From Rhodothermales bacterium (GTDB taxonomy: Bacteria; Bacteroidota; Rhodothermia; Rhodothermales; UBA10348), in contig JANJTM010000017.1 of the NCBI GenBank assembly GCA_024711125.1, positions 1 to 64,000 of the forward strand: a stretch of DNA of 64,000 nucleotides, written 5' to 3'. This document shows positions 53,769 through 64,000 of the stretch, piece by piece (positions within the stretch are counted from its first letter, which is position 1; each line of letters starts with the position of its first letter). The notes beneath the pieces are model-generated. The model was given only the letters and a program-made list of their open reading frames with translations. It was not told the origin of the DNA and searched no databases. Position numbers and translations under genes: made by a program.

Positions 53769-54062
53769 ATGGCTGACGACTACGGAATCGCCCTCGGAAT
53801 GATCGAGACGAAGGGCCTGGTGGGCGCGATCGAAGCGGCCGACGCGATGGTCAAGGCCGCCCGCGTGCGTCTCATCGGAAAGGAGACCATCGGGGGCGGT
53901 TACGTCACCGTCATGGTGCGCGGTGACGTCGGGGCCGTCAAGGCTGCGACGGACGCCGGAGCGGCCGCTGCCGAGCGGGTGGGCGAACTCGTCTCGGTCC
54001 ACGTGATCCCGCGTCCGCACGCCGACGTCGAAGCGATCCTGCCCGAAGCTCCGGACGCCTGA
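53769..54062 (+). CDS. BMC-H hexameric microcompartment shell protein
   Basis: A 97-residue single-domain BMC protein. It starts [20 protein letters not shown] from residue 8, then [12 protein letters not shown], a pore loop with [11 protein letters not shown], and [20 protein letters not shown], all standard for PduA/CcmK-type hexamers that tile the shell of carboxysomes or metabolosomes. The glycine-rich pore suggests passage of small metabolites. The length is typical and nothing is missing. It has a strong promoter of its own and is followed three bases later by a second BMC gene. No pentameric (EutN/CcmL) shell protein and no signature enzyme is nearby, so cargo is unknown. Confidence 0.95.
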
Positions 54063-54065
54063 GGC

Positions 54066-54539
54066 ATGTCCTCACCCGACCAGAGCGCGCTCGGCCTCGT
54101 GGAAACGAGAGGGCTCGTCGCCGCCCTCGAGGCGGCCGACGCGATGGTGAAGTCGGCCGACGTGCGCCTCGTGCGCATCCGGAAGACCGATCCCGCGCTC
54201 ATGACGGTACAGGTCACCGGCGAAACCGCCGCCGTGCGGGCCGCGGTGGACGCCGGTCGGGCCGCAGCCGAGCGGGTCGGATCGGTCGTTTCGACACACG
54301 TGATTGCCCGCCCGGCGACGGAGATGGCCGCCCTGCTACGGCTGTACGGTGCCGCCGGACCCGAGCGACTGCCTTCCCGGCGGGTTCCGGTGCCGTCTGC
54401 CGAGGTGTTGGACACGCTGACCGTGGCCGCGCTGCGTACGCTCGCGCGCACGACGCGCGGCCTCTCCATACACGGCCGCGCCATCGCGCGGGCGAGCAAG
54501 GCCGACCTGCTCGCCGCCTTCGCCGCCCGGAAGCGCTGA
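54066..54539 (+). CDS. BMC-H shell protein with C-terminal Rho_N/SAP-like extension
   Basis: A 157-residue protein. Residues about 8-93 are a BMC domain (ALGLVETRGLVAALEAADAM, then VKSADVRLVR and TGETAAVRAAVDAGRAAAER). The pore loop reads KTDPALMTV without the glycines of the first shell protein. A Pro/Arg-rich linker (about 94-112) leads to a helical tail LTVAALRTLARTTRGLSIHG followed by SKADLLAAF, which resembles the Rho N-terminal/SAP helix-extended-helix fold known to bind nucleic acid or partners. This recalls EutK/PduK-type shell proteins with extra C-terminal domains. It is co-transcribed with the preceding shell gene (3-base gap). The tail call is by eye and needs a profile search. 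Confidence 0.85.
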   Translation: MSSPDQSALGLVETRGLVAALEAADAMVKSADVRLVRIRKTDPALMTVQVTGETAAVRAAVDAGRAAAERVGSVVSTHVIARPATEMAALLRLYGAAGPERLPSRRVPVPSAEVLDTLTVAALRTLARTTRGLSIHGRAIARASKADLLAAFAARKR

Positions 54540-54597: not shown

Positions 54598-55596
54598 TTG
54601 GCCTCCACCTTTCCCGGACCCGCGACCAGCCGACTGCTCGAGCATCTGCGCGCGTTGGCGTCCCCGGATCCGGACGCCCGGCGCGACGAGGTCCCCCGAC
54701 GTGGCCTCGTCATCACGCTCTGCATCCTGGCCTCGGTGCTGCTCTGGTTCACGTTCGCGATCCGGGAGACCTATACGCGGTCGATCGACTTTCCGATCGA
54801 GGTATCAGGGCTCGAACCCGGCGAATCGCTCGCCGGACTGCCGCCCATGACCGTGCGCGCGCAGGTCGCAGGGGAGGGCATCCAGTTGCTGCGTCTTTTC
54901 TACGACCGACCGTCGATCCGCGTGGACGCGTCGACCGGCCTGGTCGATCTGGAGACCGTGGCGCCCGACTTCATCCAGGGCGTGCGCATCGAGGCGCTGA
55001 CCCCCCGGGAAGTGCGCTTCGAACGCGAGCGGCGTGCGTACCGTCGGTTGCCCGTGGTGCTCGGAACGCCGATCGAAACGCGACCGGGCCACCACGTCGT
55101 CGGCGTCGTGGAAATAGAGCCGGATTCGGTGCTGGTCTCCGGGGCCGAATCGATCGTGGGAGGGCTGTCGGCCTGGAGCACCGCCGGACCCCCCGTGCTC
55201 GCCGGGCCGGACTCCCTTGACGCCACGGTGGCGCTCTCGGACTCGCTGGCGGGGCTCGTGACGACCGACGTGCGCTCGGTCAGGCTGCGTGCCTCGGTCC
55301 GGCAGTTCACCCAGGGATCGCGCATGGTGCCGGTGCGGGTTGCCGACGTGCCCGAAGGGATCCGGATATCGCTGGAACCCACGTCGGTCCGGGTCACGTG
55401 GCAGGTGCCGCTCTCGGCATACCAGGAAGCTTCGACGACCGACGATCTGGTCGCCGTCGTGCCGTACGCCCGCATCGCCGCCGATACCACGGGCGCGGTC
55501 GCTCCCGTCCTCCAGGGCCTGCCGGGCATCGTCTTCCGCGGCATCGTCTTCGATCCGCCCGCGGTGCGCTGGTTTCGCGTGCAGGAAGCGCCGTGA
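54598..55596 (+). CDS. YbbR-like repeat protein
   Basis: A 332-residue protein with a cytoplasmic N-terminus, one membrane helix (VITLCILASVLLWFTFAI, about residues 37-54) and an extracytoplasmic region made of YbbR-like beta domains (FPIEVSGLEPGESLAGLPPM, VEIEPDSVLVSGAESIVGGL, RVADVPEGIRISLEPTSVRV). YbbR proteins usually sit beside the diadenylate cyclase CdaA and regulate it; no cdaA gene is adjacent here. The start is a TTG at 54598, accepted because there is no ATG before the membrane helix; this is less certain than for other genes. It lies 58 bases after the BMC pair and may be read from the same promoter. Confidence 0.72.
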   Translation: MASTFPGPATSRLLEHLRALASPDPDARRDEVPRRGLVITLCILASVLLWFTFAIRETYTRSIDFPIEVSGLEPGESLAGLPPMTVRAQVAGEGIQLLRLFYDRPSIRVDASTGLVDLETVAPDFIQGVRIEALTPREVRFERERRAYRRLPVVLGTPIETRPGHHVVGVVEIEPDSVLVSGAESIVGGLSAWSTAGPPVLAGPDSLDATVALSDSLAGLVTTDVRSVRLRASVRQFTQGSRMVPVRVADVPEGIRISLEPTSVRVTWQVPLSAYQEASTTDDLVAVVPYARIAADTTGAVAPVLQGLPGIVFRGIVFDPPAVRWFRVQEAP

Positions 55597-55684: not shown

Positions 55685-56386
55685 ATGGCTCGTCGTCTTC
55701 CAACGATGGTCGGGATGCTGTTCCCGGGGGCGAAAAGCCGTTCCGGACCGCAGCCGCCCGCGTTCGTTGAGTTCCAGCACGGCATGTTCACGGCGTCGGG
55801 CACGTGGTTTCACACGACGCGCGCCGACCTGGAGGCGTACGCGCCCGCGGTGCTCGACCGGATCGGGATCGAACGGTTGATCCGCGACGCGGAGACCGTC
55901 CTGCGGTCCCCGCAGGCCCTGACGCTCTGGGTCCTCCTCGGCCTTCTCGCGGTGGTTTCGCCCTTCCAGGCCGCCCTGTCGGCGGTCCTCGTCCACCTCG
56001 GGTGGTCGGTGCTCGCTCCCGGCCTCGTGACGCTCCCGCTCGTGCGCTTCTACCGCCTTCTCGACCCGGTCCCCCTGCAGGGCCTCGTGTACGTGGCGAT
56101 CCTGAGCGTCCTGGCCAACCAGGGGCACCTCGCGGCCCTGGGTACGGGGCTCGCCGGATTCGTGATCGTGCGATGGGGCCTGCTGGCCCGGGTGACCGAG
56201 CCGCCGGCGGCGGTGCTGCGCCGAAGCCTGTTCCGCCTTCCGCCCCCCGACCAGTGCCTGCGCGCCGTCATCGTGCGCCATGCGCTGGCGACCGGGGCGC
56301 CGCTGGCCGAACTGGACGCCATGGAGCGACGCATGCTCGAATTCGCCGCCCGACGCACGAAGGGCCGGCGCAGCGATGCAACCTGA
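55685..56386 (+). CDS. small membrane protein, function unknown
   Basis: A 233-residue protein. The N-terminal 80 residues are soluble (VEFQHGMFTASGTWFHTTRA, then DLEAYAPAVLDRIG); then come three or four membrane helices (LTLWVLLGLLAVVSPFQAAL, VLAPGLVTLPLVRFY, PLQGLVYVAILSVLANQGHL, ALGTGLAGFVIVRWGLLARV) and a charged C-terminal helix. I do not recognise a family. It begins behind an unusually AT-rich stretch (about 55660-55684), which may carry regulatory signals, and it ends inside the start region of the histidine phosphatase gene. No neighbour gives a clue to its role. Confidence 0.6.
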   Translation: MARRLPTMVGMLFPGAKSRSGPQPPAFVEFQHGMFTASGTWFHTTRADLEAYAPAVLDRIGIERLIRDAETVLRSPQALTLWVLLGLLAVVSPFQAALSAVLVHLGWSVLAPGLVTLPLVRFYRLLDPVPLQGLVYVAILSVLANQGHLAALGTGLAGFVIVRWGLLARVTEPPAAVLRRSLFRLPPPDQCLRAVIVRHALATGAPLAELDAMERRMLEFAARRTKGRRSDAT

Positions 56387-57038
56387 TTCCATGACCGAAT
56401 CCGCCGCATTCACGCTCTACGTGGTGCGACACGGCGAGACCGAGCACAACCGGCGGCGCCTGATGCAGGGCCGCCGCATCGACGCGTCCCTGAACGACCG
56501 GGGACAGCGCCAGGCCGCGCTGTTGGGTGAGCGCTTCCGGGAGGTCGCGCTGGACGCCGTCTGGGTGAGCCCGCTCCTGCGCGCCCGGCAGACCGCGGAC
56601 GCGGTGCTGTCCCACCATCCCGGGGTGCCCGTGGTGATCGAGCCCGACCTCGCCGAAATGTCGTGGGGCGAGATGGAGGGGCTCTCCATCGACGACGTGG
56701 CGGAAGACCTGCGCGCCTTCGCGGCCGAGTGGCGCGACGGCCGCTTCGATCGCCGGGTGGGCGGAGGCGAATCCATCCGGGACGTCGAGATCCGGGCCCG
56801 CGCCGTGGTGGACCGCCTGCTCGAGCGGCATCGGGGCGAAACGGTCCTCGCGGTGACGCACGGCCGCTACCTGCGTGTATTTCTCGCCGCGGCGCTCGAT
56901 CGGGGCGGACTGCGCACCATGGACCGGTTCCAGCACGCGAACACCGGGGTGTACCGGCTCGTGCACGACGGGACCGCCTTTGTCGCCGACCTGGAGAACT
57001 GCACGGCCCACCTCGAGGCCGAACTCGCGACGCCATGA
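56376..57038 (+). CDS. histidine phosphatase (phosphoglycerate-mutase-like, CobC/PhoE type)
   Basis: A 220-residue enzyme with the RHG motif VVRHGETEHNRRRLMQGRR, the second arginine in SPLLRARQTADAVL, an acidic LAEMSWGEMEGLSIDDVAED and the second catalytic His in AVTHGRYLRVFLAAAL. The complete catalytic core of the 2H phosphatase family is therefore present. Members act on alpha-ribazole phosphate, phosphoglycerates or other small phosphates, and the substrate here is unknown. The ATG at 56376 overlaps the previous gene by 11 bases; another in-frame ATG lies at 56391. The menF gene overlaps its stop (ATGA), so it is translated with the menaquinone operon. Confidence 0.88.
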   Translation: MQPDSMTESAAFTLYVVRHGETEHNRRRLMQGRRIDASLNDRGQRQAALLGERFREVALDAVWVSPLLRARQTADAVLSHHPGVPVVIEPDLAEMSWGEMEGLSIDDVAEDLRAFAAEWRDGRFDRRVGGGESIRDVEIRARAVVDRLLERHRGETVLAVTHGRYLRVFLAAALDRGGLRTMDRFQHANTGVYRLVHDGTAFVADLENCTAHLEAELATP

Positions 57039-58462
57039 AGACCGGGACCCCCGTCGAATTCCCGGCAAGGCCCGGGGCCTTCCTGGTGGACGGCGCCCTG
57101 GAGGACGCCGCCCGGCGCCTTTCCGAGGCCGTCCGCCGCGCGGGCGAGCCGACCCGTCACGGCACTTCCCCCGTGGTACGCATCGCCGTTCCGGCGCCTG
57201 CGGTCGACCCCATCGCCTGGCTGGAGGCGCGCGAACCGGGCTCCCGCTTCTACTGGTCGGCCCGCGGCGAGGGCCGCATCGCGGCGATGAGCGGCGTCGC
57301 CGACCCGTACGAGGGCTCGAACGACCCCGATTTCGACCGGCTGGCGTCCTACGTGCGCCACATGCTCGACGGCGCCGGGCCCGACGTACGCTACTACGGC
57401 GGGCTTCGGTTCGACCCGGCGCGGGACGCCGACGCCCTCTGGGAGCCGTTCGGCACGTTCCGCTTCGTCCTGCCGCGCTTCGAACTCCTGTCGCGTCCCG
57501 GCGGGACCGAACTCGCCTGCAACCTCGTCCTGCCCCGCGACCGGCGCGACATCGAGCGCATCGCGGCGGCCTGTCTCGACCTCGCCCGGGTGGCGGACGG
57601 GTCGAACGGGCCGCTTCCGAATCCCGTCGACCGCACCGACGAGCCCTCCCGGGGCCGCTGGATGGGCTCGATCGACAAGGCGCTGTCGACCATCGACGAG
57701 CACACGCTCCAGAAGGTCGTGCTCGCGCGACGCTCGAGCTTCCGGTTCGACGACGAACTGCGACCCCTCGACGTCTTCCGCAGGCTGCGGGACGCCACGC
57801 CCAACCGCTTCCACTACCTCGTCGAGGCGCCCGACGGCCGCGCGTTTCTGGGCGCGACGCCCGAGCGGCTCTTCCGGCGCGAGGGCGAATACCTGTTTTC
57901 CGAGGCCGTGGCCGGAACGCGGCCGCGGGCCGAGGACGCCGCGGGCGACGAGGCGCTGCTCTCGGCCCTCCTGCACAGCGAGAAGGACCAGCGCGAGCAC
58001 CTGAGCGTGCGCTGGGCCATCGAGGAGATCCTGCGCCCGTTCTGCGAGGCGCTCTCGGTGGACGCCCGGGCGTCCGAGATGCGCCTGGCCCATGGCCGCC
58101 ACCTCGTGTCGCGCTTCGAGGGCGTGCTGCGGCCCGGCGTGAGTTCGTGGGACCTGCTGCGCCACATGCACCCGACGCCCGCCGTCGGAGGCTATCCCGC
58201 ACAGGCAGCCATGAAGGTGATCCGGCAGCAGGAAGCGTTCGACCGCGGCTGGTACGCGGGTCCGATCGGAAGCATGGGGCGCGACGAGGCCGAGTTCGCG
58301 GTCGCCCTGCGCTGCGGCGTCGTCTCGGGCGACGCGCTGCACCTGTTCTCCGGCGCGGGCATCGTGACCGGAAGCGACCCCGCGGCCGAGTGGGACGAGA
58401 TCGAGCACAAGATCGTGGATTTCGCCCGCGTGCTGGGCCTCCTGCCCGGCGAGCCCACCTGA
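57035..58462 (+). CDS. menF: isochorismate synthase (menaquinone-specific)
   Basis: A 475-residue chorismate-utilising enzyme. The C-terminal domain (about residues 205-470) has HTLQKVVLARRS, FLGATPERLF, FSEAVAGTRPR, SEKDQREHLSVRWAIEEI, HPTPAVGGYPAQAAM and FSGAGIVTGSDPAAEWDEIE, all standard for isochorismate synthases; the SGAGIV block and the Glu residues bind magnesium. The N-terminal part is the variable domain. It turns chorismate into isochorismate, the first step of menaquinone synthesis. Neighbouring men genes support MenF over EntC. The start overlaps the phosphatase stop (ATGA). Length and motifs are normal. Confidence 0.94.
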   Translation: MKTGTPVEFPARPGAFLVDGALEDAARRLSEAVRRAGEPTRHGTSPVVRIAVPAPAVDPIAWLEAREPGSRFYWSARGEGRIAAMSGVADPYEGSNDPDFDRLASYVRHMLDGAGPDVRYYGGLRFDPARDADALWEPFGTFRFVLPRFELLSRPGGTELACNLVLPRDRRDIERIAAACLDLARVADGSNGPLPNPVDRTDEPSRGRWMGSIDKALSTIDEHTLQKVVLARRSSFRFDDELRPLDVFRRLRDATPNRFHYLVEAPDGRAFLGATPERLFRREGEYLFSEAVAGTRPRAEDAAGDEALLSALLHSEKDQREHLSVRWAIEEILRPFCEALSVDARASEMRLAHGRHLVSRFEGVLRPGVSSWDLLRHMHPTPAVGGYPAQAAMKVIRQQEAFDRGWYAGPIGSMGRDEAEFAVALRCGVVSGDALHLFSGAGIVTGSDPAAEWDEIEHKIVDFARVLGLLPGEPT

Positions 58463-58473
58463 CGATCCGCGCC

Positions 58474-60210
58474 ATGCCGAACCCGGATTCCGCACGCCTG
58501 AACCGGCACTGGGCCGGCCTCCTCGTCGAGGAGCTCGTGCGGAACGGGATCACGCGCTTCGTGCTGTCCCCGGGCTCGCGCTCGACGCCGCTCGTCGCCG
58601 CGGTCGCCGCGAATCCGGCCGCCCGGGTCCGGGTGCACGTCGACGAGCGGGGCGCGGCGTTCGCGGCGCTCGGCATGGCGCGCGCCGACGCGCGGGGCGC
58701 CGCGTGGATCACCACGTCGGGCACCGCGGCCGCCAACGGCCTGCCCGCCGTCGTGGAGGCGTCGCTCGAGGGGCTTCCGCTGGTGCTCCTGACGGCCGAC
58801 CGCCCGCCCGAACTGCGCGACGCGGCGGCCAACCAGGCCATCGACCAGGTCGGGCTCTTCGGGCGCCACGTGCGCTGGCAGGTCGACCTCCCGGCGCCCG
58901 ACCCCGCGATCGACCCGGCGTACGTGCTCACCACGGTCGACCAGGCCGTGCACCGCGCGCGGGGCACCGACCCCGGCCCCGTGCACCTGAACTGCATGTT
59001 CCGCGAGCCGCTCGTGCCGGGCCCGGACGAGCCGGACGCCGCAGTCGAAACCGGGCCGATCGCTGCGTGGCGCGCGTCCTCGGCCCCGTACACGCGCTAC
59101 GCGGCCGTGCACGTCGCGGTCGATGCGGAACCCCTGGCGCAGGACCTCGCGGCCTGCGCGCGCATCCTCATCGTCGCGGGCCGGCTCTCGCCCGACCAGG
59201 CCGGGCCCGTGCGGCGCCTCGCCGAGCGCACCGGGTGTCCGGTCGTCGCGGACGTGCTCTCGCAGCTGCACCTCGACCCGGCCGCCGGCGTCGTCCGGCA
59301 CGCCGACCTGCTTCTCGCACGCCCGGACGCGCTGCCCGCCCCGGACGCCGTCCTCCTGGTGGGCCGGCCGCCCGTGTCGAAGCGGCTCGGCACGTGGCTC
59401 GCCGGCCTGCGTCCGCGCGTCTTCGCCGTCGTGGCCGACGGCCCGTCGCGCGTGGACCCGTCGCACGTCGCGACGCACCGCCTGGCATCCATCGGCAGCG
59501 CATGTGACGGCCTCGCCGCCCGGGTCGGGGCGCGGTACCCCGCCGCCTGGTTCGAGCCGTGGCTCCATGCCGACGCCGCCGTTGAGGCCGAACTGGCGGA
59601 CGCGCTGGCCGGTCCCGACCTCAGCGAACCCTTCGTGGCGAGGGCCGTGGCCCGCCTTTCGGGCCCCGACCGCGCCCTCGTCGTCGCGAGCAGCATGCCC
59701 GTGCGCGACCTTGACGCGTTCGCCGGGCCCCGTGCCAAGCCCCTGCCGGTCCACGCCAACCGGGGCGCCAGCGGCATCGACGGCACGGTCGCCACCGCAG
59801 CCGGCGTCTGCGAGGCCTCCGGCCGCCCCGTGACCCTGCTCATCGGGGACCTCGCGCTGCTCCACGACCTGAACTCGCTCGCCCTGCTGCGCGGGCGCCC
59901 CGTGGTCGTCGTGGCGGTCAACAACGACGGCGGGGGCATCTTCTCGTTCCTTCCGATCGCGAAGCACCCGGACGTCTTCGAGCCGTATTTCGGAACCCCG
60001 CACGGCCTATCGTTCGCGCACGCGGCCGCGCTCTACGGGCTCGAGTACGACGCCCCGACCACTGCCGCGGCGTTCGAGGCGGCCTACCGCGCGGCCTGCG
60101 AACGGCCGGGCCCGACGCTCCTCGAGGTGCGTACCGACCGTCGGGACAACCGCGCGGTGCATGCCGCGCTGCTGGACCGGGCCGTCCGGGCGGCCTTCGG
60201 GGCGCCATGA
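58474..60210 (+). CDS. menD: SEPHCHC synthase (2-oxoglutarate-dependent ThDP enzyme)
   Basis: A 578-residue thiamine-diphosphate enzyme that joins isochorismate and 2-oxoglutarate. N-terminal marks: [32 protein letters not shown] (with the catalytic Glu), [38 protein letters not shown]-terminal ThDP/Mg site: [17 protein letters not shown] and [17 protein letters not shown]. All parts and the length match MenD. The ATG at 58474 lies 11 bases after menF, and menH follows with an ATGA overlap. It is the second step of the pathway. No unusual features. Confidence 0.95.
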
Positions 60211-60974
60211 CGGCCCCGGCGCGCCGGCTGCCGGTGCTCCTGCTCCACGGCTTTCTCGGCAGCGCCGCGGACTGGGACGGGGTGCGCCTGACCGGCCGCG
60301 AATCCGAAGCCGTCGACCTGCCGGGGCACGGCGCGGCGACCGGACTCGAGGCGTCGGCCTACACCCTGGAGGGCGCCGCCCGCCACGTCCTGGCCGCGGC
60401 CGATGCCGCGGGCTGGGACCGGTTCGCGGTCGCCGGGTACTCGATGGGCGGACGCGTCGCGCTGCGCCTCGCGGCGCTCTCGCCGGACCGCACGGCGGCC
60501 GTGGCGGCGATCTCGGCCCACCCGGGCCTCGCCGACCCCGGGGAGCGGGCCGAACGGCTCGCGTCGGACCTGCGCCGGGCCGAGGCGCTTCGCCGGGACC
60601 CCGTGACCTTCCTCGCCGCGTGGTACGACCAGCCCGTCTTCCGCCCCGTCGCCGCGCGACCCGGGCTGCGGCGCCGACTCGAAGGGCGCCATCGGGCCGT
60701 GGACCCGGAAGAAGCCGCCCGCGCCCTCGCGGGCTTCTCGACGGGCCTGCAGGAGCCCCTCGGGGAACGCCTCGCCGCGCTCGGCGTGCCTGCGCTGCTC
60801 GTCAGCGGGGCGCTCGACCCGGCCTACGACCGGCTCCTGGCCGCCGAAGCCGCCCGGCACGGGTTCGCGCACGTGCGCATCGACGGCGCGGGACACGCCA
60901 TTCCGCTCGAACAACCGGCGCGCCTCGCGGCCGCCCTCGACCGATTCCTCAACCTGATCGACCCATGTCCGTGA
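60207..60974 (+). CDS. menH: SHCHC synthase, alpha/beta-hydrolase
   Basis: A 255-residue alpha/beta-hydrolase that removes pyruvate from the MenD product. Visible are the oxyanion [13 protein letters not shown], the nucleophile elbow [10 protein letters not shown] (Ser about residue 87), the acid strand [13 protein letters not shown] and the catalytic His in [12 protein letters not shown]. Its place between menD and menB, with ATGA overlap on the left, supports MenH over other small hydrolases. It overlaps the menB start by 10 bases. Length is typical. Confidence 0.92.
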
Positions 60975-61789
60975 TCGACTGGCAGCCCGCCGGCGCCTAC
61001 ACCGATATCGAGTACCACAAGGCCGAGGGGATCGCGAAGATCACCATCAACCGGCCCGAGAAGCGCAACGCCTTCCGCCCGCTCACCGTGACCGAGATGC
61101 GGCACGCGCTGCAGGAGGCGCGCGACGACCACGAGGTCGGCGTGATCATCCTGACCGGCAAGGGCCCCGACGCCTTCTGTTCGGGCGGAGACCAGTCGAT
61201 CCGCGGCGACGCGGGCTACAAGGAGGAGGGCTCGGGCGTCATGCGGCTCAACGTGCTCGACCTGCAGCGCGAGATCCGCACGTGCCCCAAGCCCGTCGTC
61301 GCGATGGTCGCCGGGTGGGCGGTCGGCGGCGGACAGGTCCTCCACGTCGTCTGCGACCTCACGATCGCGGCCGAAAACGCGAAGTTCATGCAGACCGGGC
61401 CCAAGGTCGGCTCCTTCGACGGCGGGTTCGGGTCGAGCTACCTCGCCCGCATCGTCGGCCAGAAGAAGGCCCGCGAGATCTGGTTCCTCTGCCGCCCCTA
61501 CGATGCGCAGCAGGCCCTCCAGATGGGCCTCGTGAACACGGTCGTGCCGCTCGAGCGGCTCGAGGAGGAGACCGTGCAGTGGTGCCGGGAGATCCTCGAG
61601 AAGTCGCCGCTCGCCATCCGCTGCCTCAAGGCCGCGATGAACGCCGACTGCGACGGCCAGGCCGGCCTGCAGGAACTGGCGGGCAACGCGACCCTGCTCT
61701 TCTACATGACCGAGGAGGGGCAGGAGGGACGCAACGCGTACAACGAGAAGCGCAAGCCCGACTTCGGCAAGTTCCCGAAACGGCCGTGA
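60965..61789 (+). CDS. menB: 1,4-dihydroxy-2-naphthoyl-CoA synthase
   Basis: A 274-residue crotonase-family enzyme that cyclises o-succinylbenzoyl-CoA. Its marks are [75 protein letters not shown] and [18 protein letters not shown]. The GGDQ and [10 protein letters not shown] signatures are specific to MenB, and the C-terminus [14 protein letters not shown] fits as well. The ATG at 60965 lies inside the end of menH (10-base overlap), and menA begins with a GTGA overlap at its stop. Nothing is missing. Confidence 0.96.
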
Positions 61790-62673
61790 GCGCGCTCCCG
61801 GCCCCCCGCGTCTGGCTGCTCGCCGCCCGTCCGAAGACCCTGCTCGCCTCGGTCTCCCCCGTACTGGTCGGAACGGCCCTCGCCTGGGCGGACGGCGCCT
61901 TCCACGCGCTTTCGGCCGCGCTCGCGCTCCTCGGCGCGATGCTCATCCAGGTCGGAACGAACTACCACAACGACTACTCCGACTTCGAGAAGGGCACCGA
62001 CCGGGTGGGTCGCAAGGGTCCGACCCGGGCGACCGCGGCCGGACTCGCGACCGTGGCCCAGATGCGACGCGCCACCGTCGCGGCCTTCGGGCTCGCGGTC
62101 GTCGCGGGCCTCTACCTGATGGCGCGCGGAGGCTGGCCGATCGCGATCGTGGGCTTCAGTTCGATCCTCTTCGGCGTGCTCTACACCGCGGGGCGCCGGT
62201 CGCTGGCCTATCTCGGCATCGCCGACGGCTTCGTGCTGCTCTTTTTCGGCCCGGTCGCGGTGGCGGGCACCCACTTCGTGCAGGCGCTGTCGTTTTCGCC
62301 CGAGGCCGCGATCGCGGGGCTCGGCCCCGGCCTGCTGTCGACCGCGCTCCTGCTCGTCAACAACGTGCGCGACGTGGAGGGTGACGCCGCCGCCGGAAAA
62401 CGCACGCTCGTCGTGCGGCTCGGACGCGCTGCAGGCGTCGCCCTGTATGCCGTGTGCATCCTGGGGGCGGCCGCTGCTGCCGTCTGGGTGGGTCTTCAGC
62501 CGGGAGGCCGGCCTGCCGCCGCCGCCGCCGCGGTGGTCGCCCTGCCCGGCCTCGCGCTCTGGCGCGGCCTGGCACGCGGCGGCGATCCGGCCGCCTACGG
62601 TGCCCTGCTGGTCCGCACCTCGGCGCTCGGACTCGCCTGGGCGCTCCTCTTTTCGCTCGGAACCGCCTTTTGA
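61786..62673 (+). CDS. menA: 1,4-dihydroxy-2-naphthoate polyprenyltransferase
   Basis: A 295-residue UbiA-family prenyltransferase with eight or nine membrane helices. The two Asp-rich magnesium motifs are visible: [20 protein letters not shown] near residue 56 and [20 protein letters not shown] near 190. The start [20 protein letters not shown] is typical for MenA. It attaches the prenyl tail to 1,4-dihydroxy-2-naphthoate in the membrane. The start is a GTG that overlaps the menB stop. The gene is followed at once by menC. No methyltransferase (menG/ubiE) is in the window. Confidence 0.94.
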
Positions 62674-62678
62674 CCTCC

Positions 62679-63731
62679 GTGCGGCGCTGCGAAGCCTTTG
62701 TTCGACCCTTCCGCCTGGCCCTCGGGCCGGGCGCGTTCGCCCCCGCCCGGGACGGGCTGTGGCTGCGCCTGTCGCTGGACGACGGCGCCGTCGGGTGGGG
62801 AGAGGCCGCGCCGCTGCCCGGGTTCTCGCGCGAATCGCCTGACGAGGCGCGGCAGGCCCTCGACAACATCGCAGGCCGCGTTCCGGGCGCCGGGTTTGAC
62901 GAGGGTGATCCCCTCGGCTGGGCCGGGGCGCTCGCGGCGGAAGCCCCCTCCTCGGTCCGGTTCGCGGTCGAATCGGCGGCCGTGCACCTCGCGTCGGCCC
63001 TGCGCGGGCAGTCGGCCGCGGCCGTGCTCGCCGCGGCTTTGGGCACCGAGGCCCGTACTTCCGTTTCGTGCGCGGCCCTCGTGACGGGCGCCCCGGAGAC
63101 GTGGACCGCCCGGGTGCACGAGGCCGTGGCAGCCGGGTACGGCGTCGTCAAGCTCAAGGTCGGTCGTGCCGACTCCGGCGCGGAATCCCGGGCGCTGGAG
63201 GCGCTCGCCGCCGCGGTGCGGGGATTGCCCGTGCGCCTGCGCCTCGACGCGAACCGCGCGTTTTCGTTTGACGACGCGCTCCGCCTTGCCGACGCGGCGC
63301 GCGCGCTGCCGGTGGAGTTCCTCGAGGAGCCGCTGGCCGAGCCGGCTCGGCTCGCCGAATTCGCCGCTGCCGTCGGGCTCCCCGTCGCGCTCGACGAGTC
63401 GCTCCAGCAAGGGGACCCGGGCGAGGTGGGGTTCGCGGCGGCCCTGGTGCTCAAGCCGACGCTCGTCGGCGGCATCGCGCGCTGCATGGACCTCGCGCGC
63501 CGCGCCGAGGCCGCCGGCGCGGCCGCGATGGTCTCTTCGGCCTTCGAAACCGGGGTCGGGTTGCGCATGGCCGCCGCCCTGGCGTGCGCCCTTCCGGGTC
63601 GCACGCTCGCCGCCGGCCTCGACACCGCGCGCTGGTTCGACGAGGACGGAACGACGCCCCGATTCGACGTCTCGCCGCACCTTGCGGCGCCGAGCCCGGC
63701 CTGGCACGTCCGGGCGGAGGCCGCGCCATGA
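62679..63731 (+). CDS. menC: o-succinylbenzoate synthase
   Basis: A 350-residue enolase-superfamily enzyme that dehydrates SHCHC to o-succinylbenzoate. The acid-base Lys lies in VVKLKVGRADSG, the metal ligands in LRLDANRAFSF, EFLEEPLAEP and VALDESLQQ, and the second Lys in LVLKPTLVGGI. A capping domain with WGEAAPLPGFSRES precedes. The start is uncertain: GTG at 62679 was chosen, but a TTG at 62670 overlapping the menA stop is equally possible and would add three residues. The menE gene overlaps its end (ATGA). Sequence features all fit MenC. Confidence 0.92.
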   Translation: MRRCEAFVRPFRLALGPGAFAPARDGLWLRLSLDDGAVGWGEAAPLPGFSRESPDEARQALDNIAGRVPGAGFDEGDPLGWAGALAAEAPSSVRFAVESAAVHLASALRGQSAAAVLAAALGTEARTSVSCAALVTGAPETWTARVHEAVAAGYGVVKLKVGRADSGAESRALEALAAAVRGLPVRLRLDANRAFSFDDALRLADAARALPVEFLEEPLAEPARLAEFAAAVGLPVALDESLQQGDPGEVGFAAALVLKPTLVGGIARCMDLARRAEAAGAAAMVSSAFETGVGLRMAAALACALPGRTLAAGLDTARWFDEDGTTPRFDVSPHLAAPSPAWHVRAEAAP

Positions 63732-64000
63732 GCCGCCCGGGCACCGACCCCGTGCGCGAGGCCGCCCGGCGCTACCCGGCCCGGCCCGCCGTCGTGCTGC
63801 CGGGTCTCACGCTGTCGTGGTCAGGCCTGGACGCCCGGGTTGACGCGGCGGCCGCCCTTCTGCGCTCGGTGGGAACCGAACCGGGCGCAATCGTCGCATT
63901 CCGCGCTCCGACCGACCTGCCGGCGATCCTCGCGATCTTCGCGGCGATCCGTCTCGGCGCGGTGGCGGCGCCGCTGGGAACCCGGCTGCCGCTCCAGGGC
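63728..64000 (+). CDS. menE: o-succinylbenzoate-CoA ligase, N-terminal part (runs off the window)
   Basis: The first 91 residues of an AMP-forming acyl-CoA ligase: an N-terminal region with REAARRYPARPAVVLPGLTL and SWSGLDARVDAAAALLRSVG, then FRAPTDLPAILAIFAAIRLG and AVAAPLGTRLP, as in the ANL superfamily. The P-loop-like and A8 motifs lie beyond the end of the window. Its position directly after menC, with an ATGA overlap, supports MenE, which activates o-succinylbenzoate for MenB. The 3' end is cut off by the window limit at base 64000. Confidence 0.88.
   Translation, partial: MSRPGTDPVREAARRYPARPAVVLPGLTLSWSGLDARVDAAAALLRSVGTEPGAIVAFRAPTDLPAILAIFAAIRLGAVAAPLGTRLPLQG

Follow-up and report, generated by a model that had tools for sequence, protein, structure and literature searches.

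The locus raises the question of what a bacterial shell protein does with a small, conserved helical module at its C-terminus. In the window, the whole 64,000-nucleotide stretch of Rhodothermales DNA analysed here, two BMC-H genes lie in tandem, with a gap of 3 nt between the stop of BMC-H1 and the start of BMC-H2 (Table 1). The BMC-H2 reading frame lies exactly where the preliminary description had placed a BMC shell protein, and its BMC part is recognised as a single pfam00936 domain (94.5 bits, Pfam cut-off 24.5). BMC-H1 exceeds the NCBIfam EutM cut-off (136.4 bits against 133), and carries the pore loop IGGGY and the edge motifs KAAR and PRPH. In a fold search, the BMC-H2 model aligns with PduA over 91 residues (Z 17.7, rmsd 1.7), and the search with the whole model returned matches for the BMC part only. 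At the tiling edge of BMC-H2, K29 and R82 (the RP(H) arginine) are invariant in a six-row alignment, with variation at the other motif positions. From the fold and the edges, we infer that BMC-H2 would form hexamers and enter the shell.

Table 1. Features of the tandem BMC-H locus, in window coordinates.
Feature	Coordinates	Strand	Remarks
BMC-H1 gene	53769..54062	+	Tail-less 97-aa EutM-like shell hexamer protein; Pfam BMC 3e-30
BMC-H2 gene	54066..54539	+	157-aa shell protein with C-terminal module
BMC (PF00936) domain of BMC-H2, residues 8-83	54087..54314	+	Pfam 3.8e-27
BMC-H2 pore loop T41-D42-P43-A44-L45	54186..54200	+	Glycine-free; PduA pore position S40 taken from PDB titles
Flexible linker of BMC-H2	54345..54398	+	Low pLDDT; hypervariable among homologues
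Rho_N/SAP-like helical module (predicted), residues 112-156 (45 residues)	54399..54533	+	V120, R124, R128, G137, R138 and L148 invariant (53/53 BMC-H2 proteins)
YbbR/CdaR-like gene	54598..55596	+	Conserved downstream neighbour of the BMC-H pair; context, outside the shell protein

The tail is predicted to fold by itself. In a full-length AlphaFold2 model of BMC-H2, built from a six-sequence alignment, a BMC core and a disordered linker (96-105) are followed by a folded region at 112-156 (mean pLDDT 83.7) with helices at 112-117, 120-129, 138-142 and 145-156, in good agreement with the Rho_N/SAP-like pattern first noticed at about 112-157. Predicted in isolation, the tail is again folded (pLDDT 90.9, pTM 0.72). 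In a VIA-align comparison of this model with the PDB, the N-terminal helix bundle of Rho (residues 1-43) ranks first (Z 6.1, rmsd 1.4 Å, 43 aligned), although Z values around 6 may also arise from a widespread structural arrangement. Other Rho entries, T4 EndoVII (Z 4.7) and the SAP domain of FAN1 (Z 4.6) follow at lower ranks. Foldseek with the tail model gave no significant E-value (best 2.5), as is to be expected of so small a domain (52 residues).

Profile searches, a check proposed in the preliminary description, bore out the family resemblance in the homologues but not at the level of formal membership. The window's own tail scores weakly in Pfam as a single sequence (SAP 0.15, HeH 0.15), so a single-sequence search would miss the module. 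Among 27 homologous tails, 23 match Rho_N (best 6.3e-5) and 23 match SAP (best 7.4e-4), at sub-threshold level, and 21 match the T4-endonuclease-VII-type PHROG_3281. A whole-genome search with Rho_N hit one tail unprompted (G047:C87, 21.9 bits). This is under the Rho_N gathering threshold of 24.9 bits, as are the other members shown (13.6-18.4), and the SAP scores shown (12.2-16.5) are likewise under that family's 23.9 bits; the tail is therefore not assigned as a member of either Pfam family. In an hhalign comparison, the tail aligns with N-termini of Rho proteins from the order at E 5e-4 over 32 columns, at a probability of 31% with both alignments shallow, compared with E 0.13 over 7 columns for a shuffled control. 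A sequence search of the PDB with the tail profile found nothing meaningful. The column-shuffled tail alignment matched neither Rho_N nor SAP in Pfam, and this control, together with conservation across 53 sequences, rules out a chance pattern. Thus the predicted tail fold is Rho_N/SAP-like.

Conservation is distributed unevenly along the protein. When 53 distinct BMC-H2 proteins are compared in pairs, identity averages 62% for the BMC domain and 56% for the tail, against 12% for the linker. Besides the invariant residues in Table 1, basic character is kept at position 145 (K/R in all) and position 142 (R/K in 51/53), and net charge is positive in 26/27 tails, with a mean of +3.2. The linkers differ greatly in length and composition, being Pro/Ala-rich, histone-H1-like (L022) or strongly acidic (L190), the last a type to which many of those outside the order belong. 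In three lineages the BMC part has diverged with the tail kept (BMC scores of 11.9 bits in L198, where it is degenerate, 61.6 in L192 and 45.3 in L199).

The distribution of the tail, sampled within one phylum, follows that of the shell genes. In the order, the 49 genomes (of 114) that carry the tail are precisely those that carry BMC-H, and nearly all of them have one BMC-H pair, one tailed and one tail-less. In the window's own genome the tail appears once at high score. It is also present in 61 further sampled genomes of the phylum outside the order, and in all 25 of the outside-order loci that were opened it sits on a BMC-H-like protein, whose BMC domain is recognisable in 24 and degenerate in one; a tail-less BMC-H accompanies it in 24 of them (not in L198). 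A sequencing or frame artefact as the origin of the fusion is ruled out, as it recurs throughout the order and in 24/25 of the further phylum loci (in the 25th, L198, the BMC part is degenerate). The nearest named records are Rhodothermales MAGs.

The shell genes of the window's genome are two BMC-H and three BMC-P, spread over several genomic locations (C70, C78 and C24), with a BMC-P pair on C78 and the single BMC-P on C24. Three BMC-P are also found in most BMC genomes of the order. The possibility that these are orphan shell genes without a compartment is ruled out by the three BMC-P in the genome. Apart from the shell genes, an aldehyde dehydrogenase (AldDH) of CoA-acylating type is encoded at C61:57329-59002 (locus L143:17329-19002, minus strand), with efp-, accB- and accC-like genes as neighbours. 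It scores 517 bits against TIGR02518 (acetylating type), below the equivalog cut-off of 620, and it ends in a Pro/Ala linker followed by LSDAEIEKIVAEFSR, an encapsulation-peptide-like helix. AldDH and BMC-H occur together in 46 genomes of the order, with 5 discordant genomes, all fragmented MAGs (Fisher p 1e-25, genome relatedness being ignored). FRAG metabolosomes, as described by Sutter et al. 2021 (PMC8217296), have dispersed shell genes, among them a BMC-P triplet, and an AldDH encoded at a distance from these; the organelle is assigned to a FRAG-like type because all of these fit. The hosts are Ignavibacteria-related, as for FRAG, but the Rho_N/SAP tail is absent from the main text of that catalog (PMC8217296). 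The AldDH is a candidate cargo of a FRAG-like metabolosome.

What the tail does is answered here tentatively, with a reading to which we give slightly less than an even chance: that it tethers the shell from outside to nucleic acid, most probably that of the nucleoid. The C-termini of BMC-H proteins are expected outside the shell, emerging on its external, concave side, which is why an external tether is proposed; the tail would reach into the cytosol at the end of a flexible linker. In the proposed mechanism, BMC-H2 would serve as a minor tile in a metabolosome of the fragmented (FRAG-like) type that oxidises aldehydes, and its BMC core would enter the facets beside BMC-H1. From its C-terminus, on the cytosolic face, a disordered tether would lead to the basic Rho_N/SAP-like module, and up to six modules per tile would bind nucleic acid with low affinity, irrespective of its sequence. 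Chromosomal DNA is the most likely target, and the modules would hold the organelle on the nucleoid, favouring spacing and partition. Linkers of variable length and composition are as expected of a tether, the predicted fold is of a nucleic-acid-binding type and several of the most conserved residues are basic. Rho itself binds dsDNA nonspecifically via its primary binding site, of which the N-terminal helix bundle is a part (PMC12133298). However, that bundle has been suggested to feed nucleic acid into the OB fold and not to retain it on its own (PMC12133298), and the strongly acidic linkers outside the order would disfavour a close approach to DNA. Helix-loop-helix modules of the size of the tail can also bind proteins.

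The main rival to the tether is a protein-protein docking module, at the shell surface or in the lumen, recruiting a partner such as the AldDH, the AAA+ ATPase whose gene is next to that of the single BMC-P, or a membrane protein such as the YbbR/CdaR-like one; we regard this as possible but doubtful. In general, protein binding is common among helical modules as small as this one, and the obligate occurrence of the tail with shell genes and a dedicated AldDH is consistent with docking. So is the conserved YbbR-like gene, which follows the BMC-H pair in 13/13 loci of the order and in 13/20 other phylum loci (one homologue has a YbbR match at 5.5e-11). The invariant arginines would also fit an acidic protein partner, and some of the linkers are acidic. 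Against docking, it is nucleic-acid-binding families that the profile and fold comparisons bring up, the Pfam matches of the tails include no protein-docking family (e.g. E3_binding), and the C-termini are expected outside, away from lumenal cargo.

It is unlikely that the tail binds RNA instead of DNA (mRNA, ribosome-associated RNA or degradation products), bringing the shell to sites of translation or supplying a nucleoside-type metabolosome with scavenged nucleic acid. In fold the tail comes closest to the RNA-binding region of Rho, but nothing separates RNA from DNA as the ligand. In several genera (L012, L116, L117, L120, L121 and L129), a gene for phosphopentomutase (deoB) lies either upstream of the BMC-P pair or in its vicinity. 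This hints at a metabolism of nucleosides or pentose phosphates; deoxyribose phosphate is a substrate of SPU metabolosomes (PMC8217296). However, deoB is not always adjacent; in L118 and L119 the surroundings of the pair lack it.

The glycines in the pore loop of BMC-H1 are missing from that of BMC-H2, as the preliminary description observed, and the pore may be closed: TDPAL stands against IGGGY/F, kept in 36/36 BMC-H1 sequences, and homologous loops read TVAAL, ADAGL, TNPAL and similar, mostly T-(V,D,N,E,M)-(A,P)-(A,G)-L or close to it. With such a pore, and with C-termini that emerge on the external, concave side, the tail might be a structural or gating appendage folded over that face of its own hexamer as a plug, but this is very improbable, as a plug would need neither a hypervariable linker nor a charged, conserved module that folds on its own.

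The tether reading can be set beside several known systems. The likeness to EutK that was first suggested holds in concept, as EutK combines a BMC-H core with a C-terminal PF16365 domain (PMC12058022), also of a nucleic-acid-binding-type fold, but does not extend to the tail family. PF16365 matches neither BMC-H2 nor the homologous tails, and BMC-H2 scores 80.5 bits (residues 7-120) against NCBIfam EutK, missing the cut-off of 218. EutK, moreover, behaves as a monomer (PMC12058022). BMC-H2 also differs from it in its obligate pairing with a tail-less BMC-H across the phylum. With Rho_N (PF07498) and SAP (PF02037) the tail shares its predicted fold and helix pattern, but its loop is about five residues longer (IQGREIARAN), its scores are below the Pfam cut-offs and it sits on a shell protein without an OB fold. 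PHB granules are positioned by single proteins, PhaM, PhaF and PhaH, each of which binds the organelle at one end and DNA nonspecifically at the other (PMC13052382). The logic proposed for BMC-H2, an organelle-bound N-terminal part and a DNA-binding C-terminal part in one protein, is the same, although the proteins and the organelle are unrelated and DNA binding, shown for the Pha proteins, is inferred for BMC-H2. McdA/McdB also place a BMC, the carboxysome, relative to the nucleoid (PMC13052382), but use a ParA-type ATPase, which the proposed tether would not need.

Full-text literature searches, in which the BMC catalog was covered by its main text, found no description of a BMC-H/Rho_N-SAP fusion. 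It is possible, if less than probable, that the tether is built in and keeps the metabolosome at the nucleoid with no need of an NTPase, is conserved in much of the phylum, and represents the first such positioning mechanism for a metabolosome. If true, this would be a simple answer to how metabolic organelles are positioned, and with a conserved, obligate Rho_N/SAP-like arm the question becomes testable with one truncation. The link between FRAG-like shell genes and a dedicated AldDH gives a first cargo candidate for organelles of unknown function in the order.

Some further neighbours recur at these loci. The AAA+ ATPase gene (PF00004, ~470 aa) adjoins the single BMC-P in 6/7 loci (L013:8326-9600, L110, L111 and L113-L115), with 66-79% identity among relatives, and its product may be an organelle-associated remodelling ATPase. 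In several genera pcm adjoins the region of deoB and the BMC-P pair. A gene for a CdaA-type diadenylate cyclase is found near the BMC-P pair in 6/8 loci (e.g. L012:9866-10663), and so the BMC-H pair and the BMC-P pair each lie beside a c-di-AMP-type gene. Downstream of the YbbR-like gene in the window, a menaquinone synthesis run (56000-63800) comprises menF, menD, and menH-, menB-, menA- and menC-like open reading frames, and the menF/menD neighbourhood is conserved in several loci of the order.
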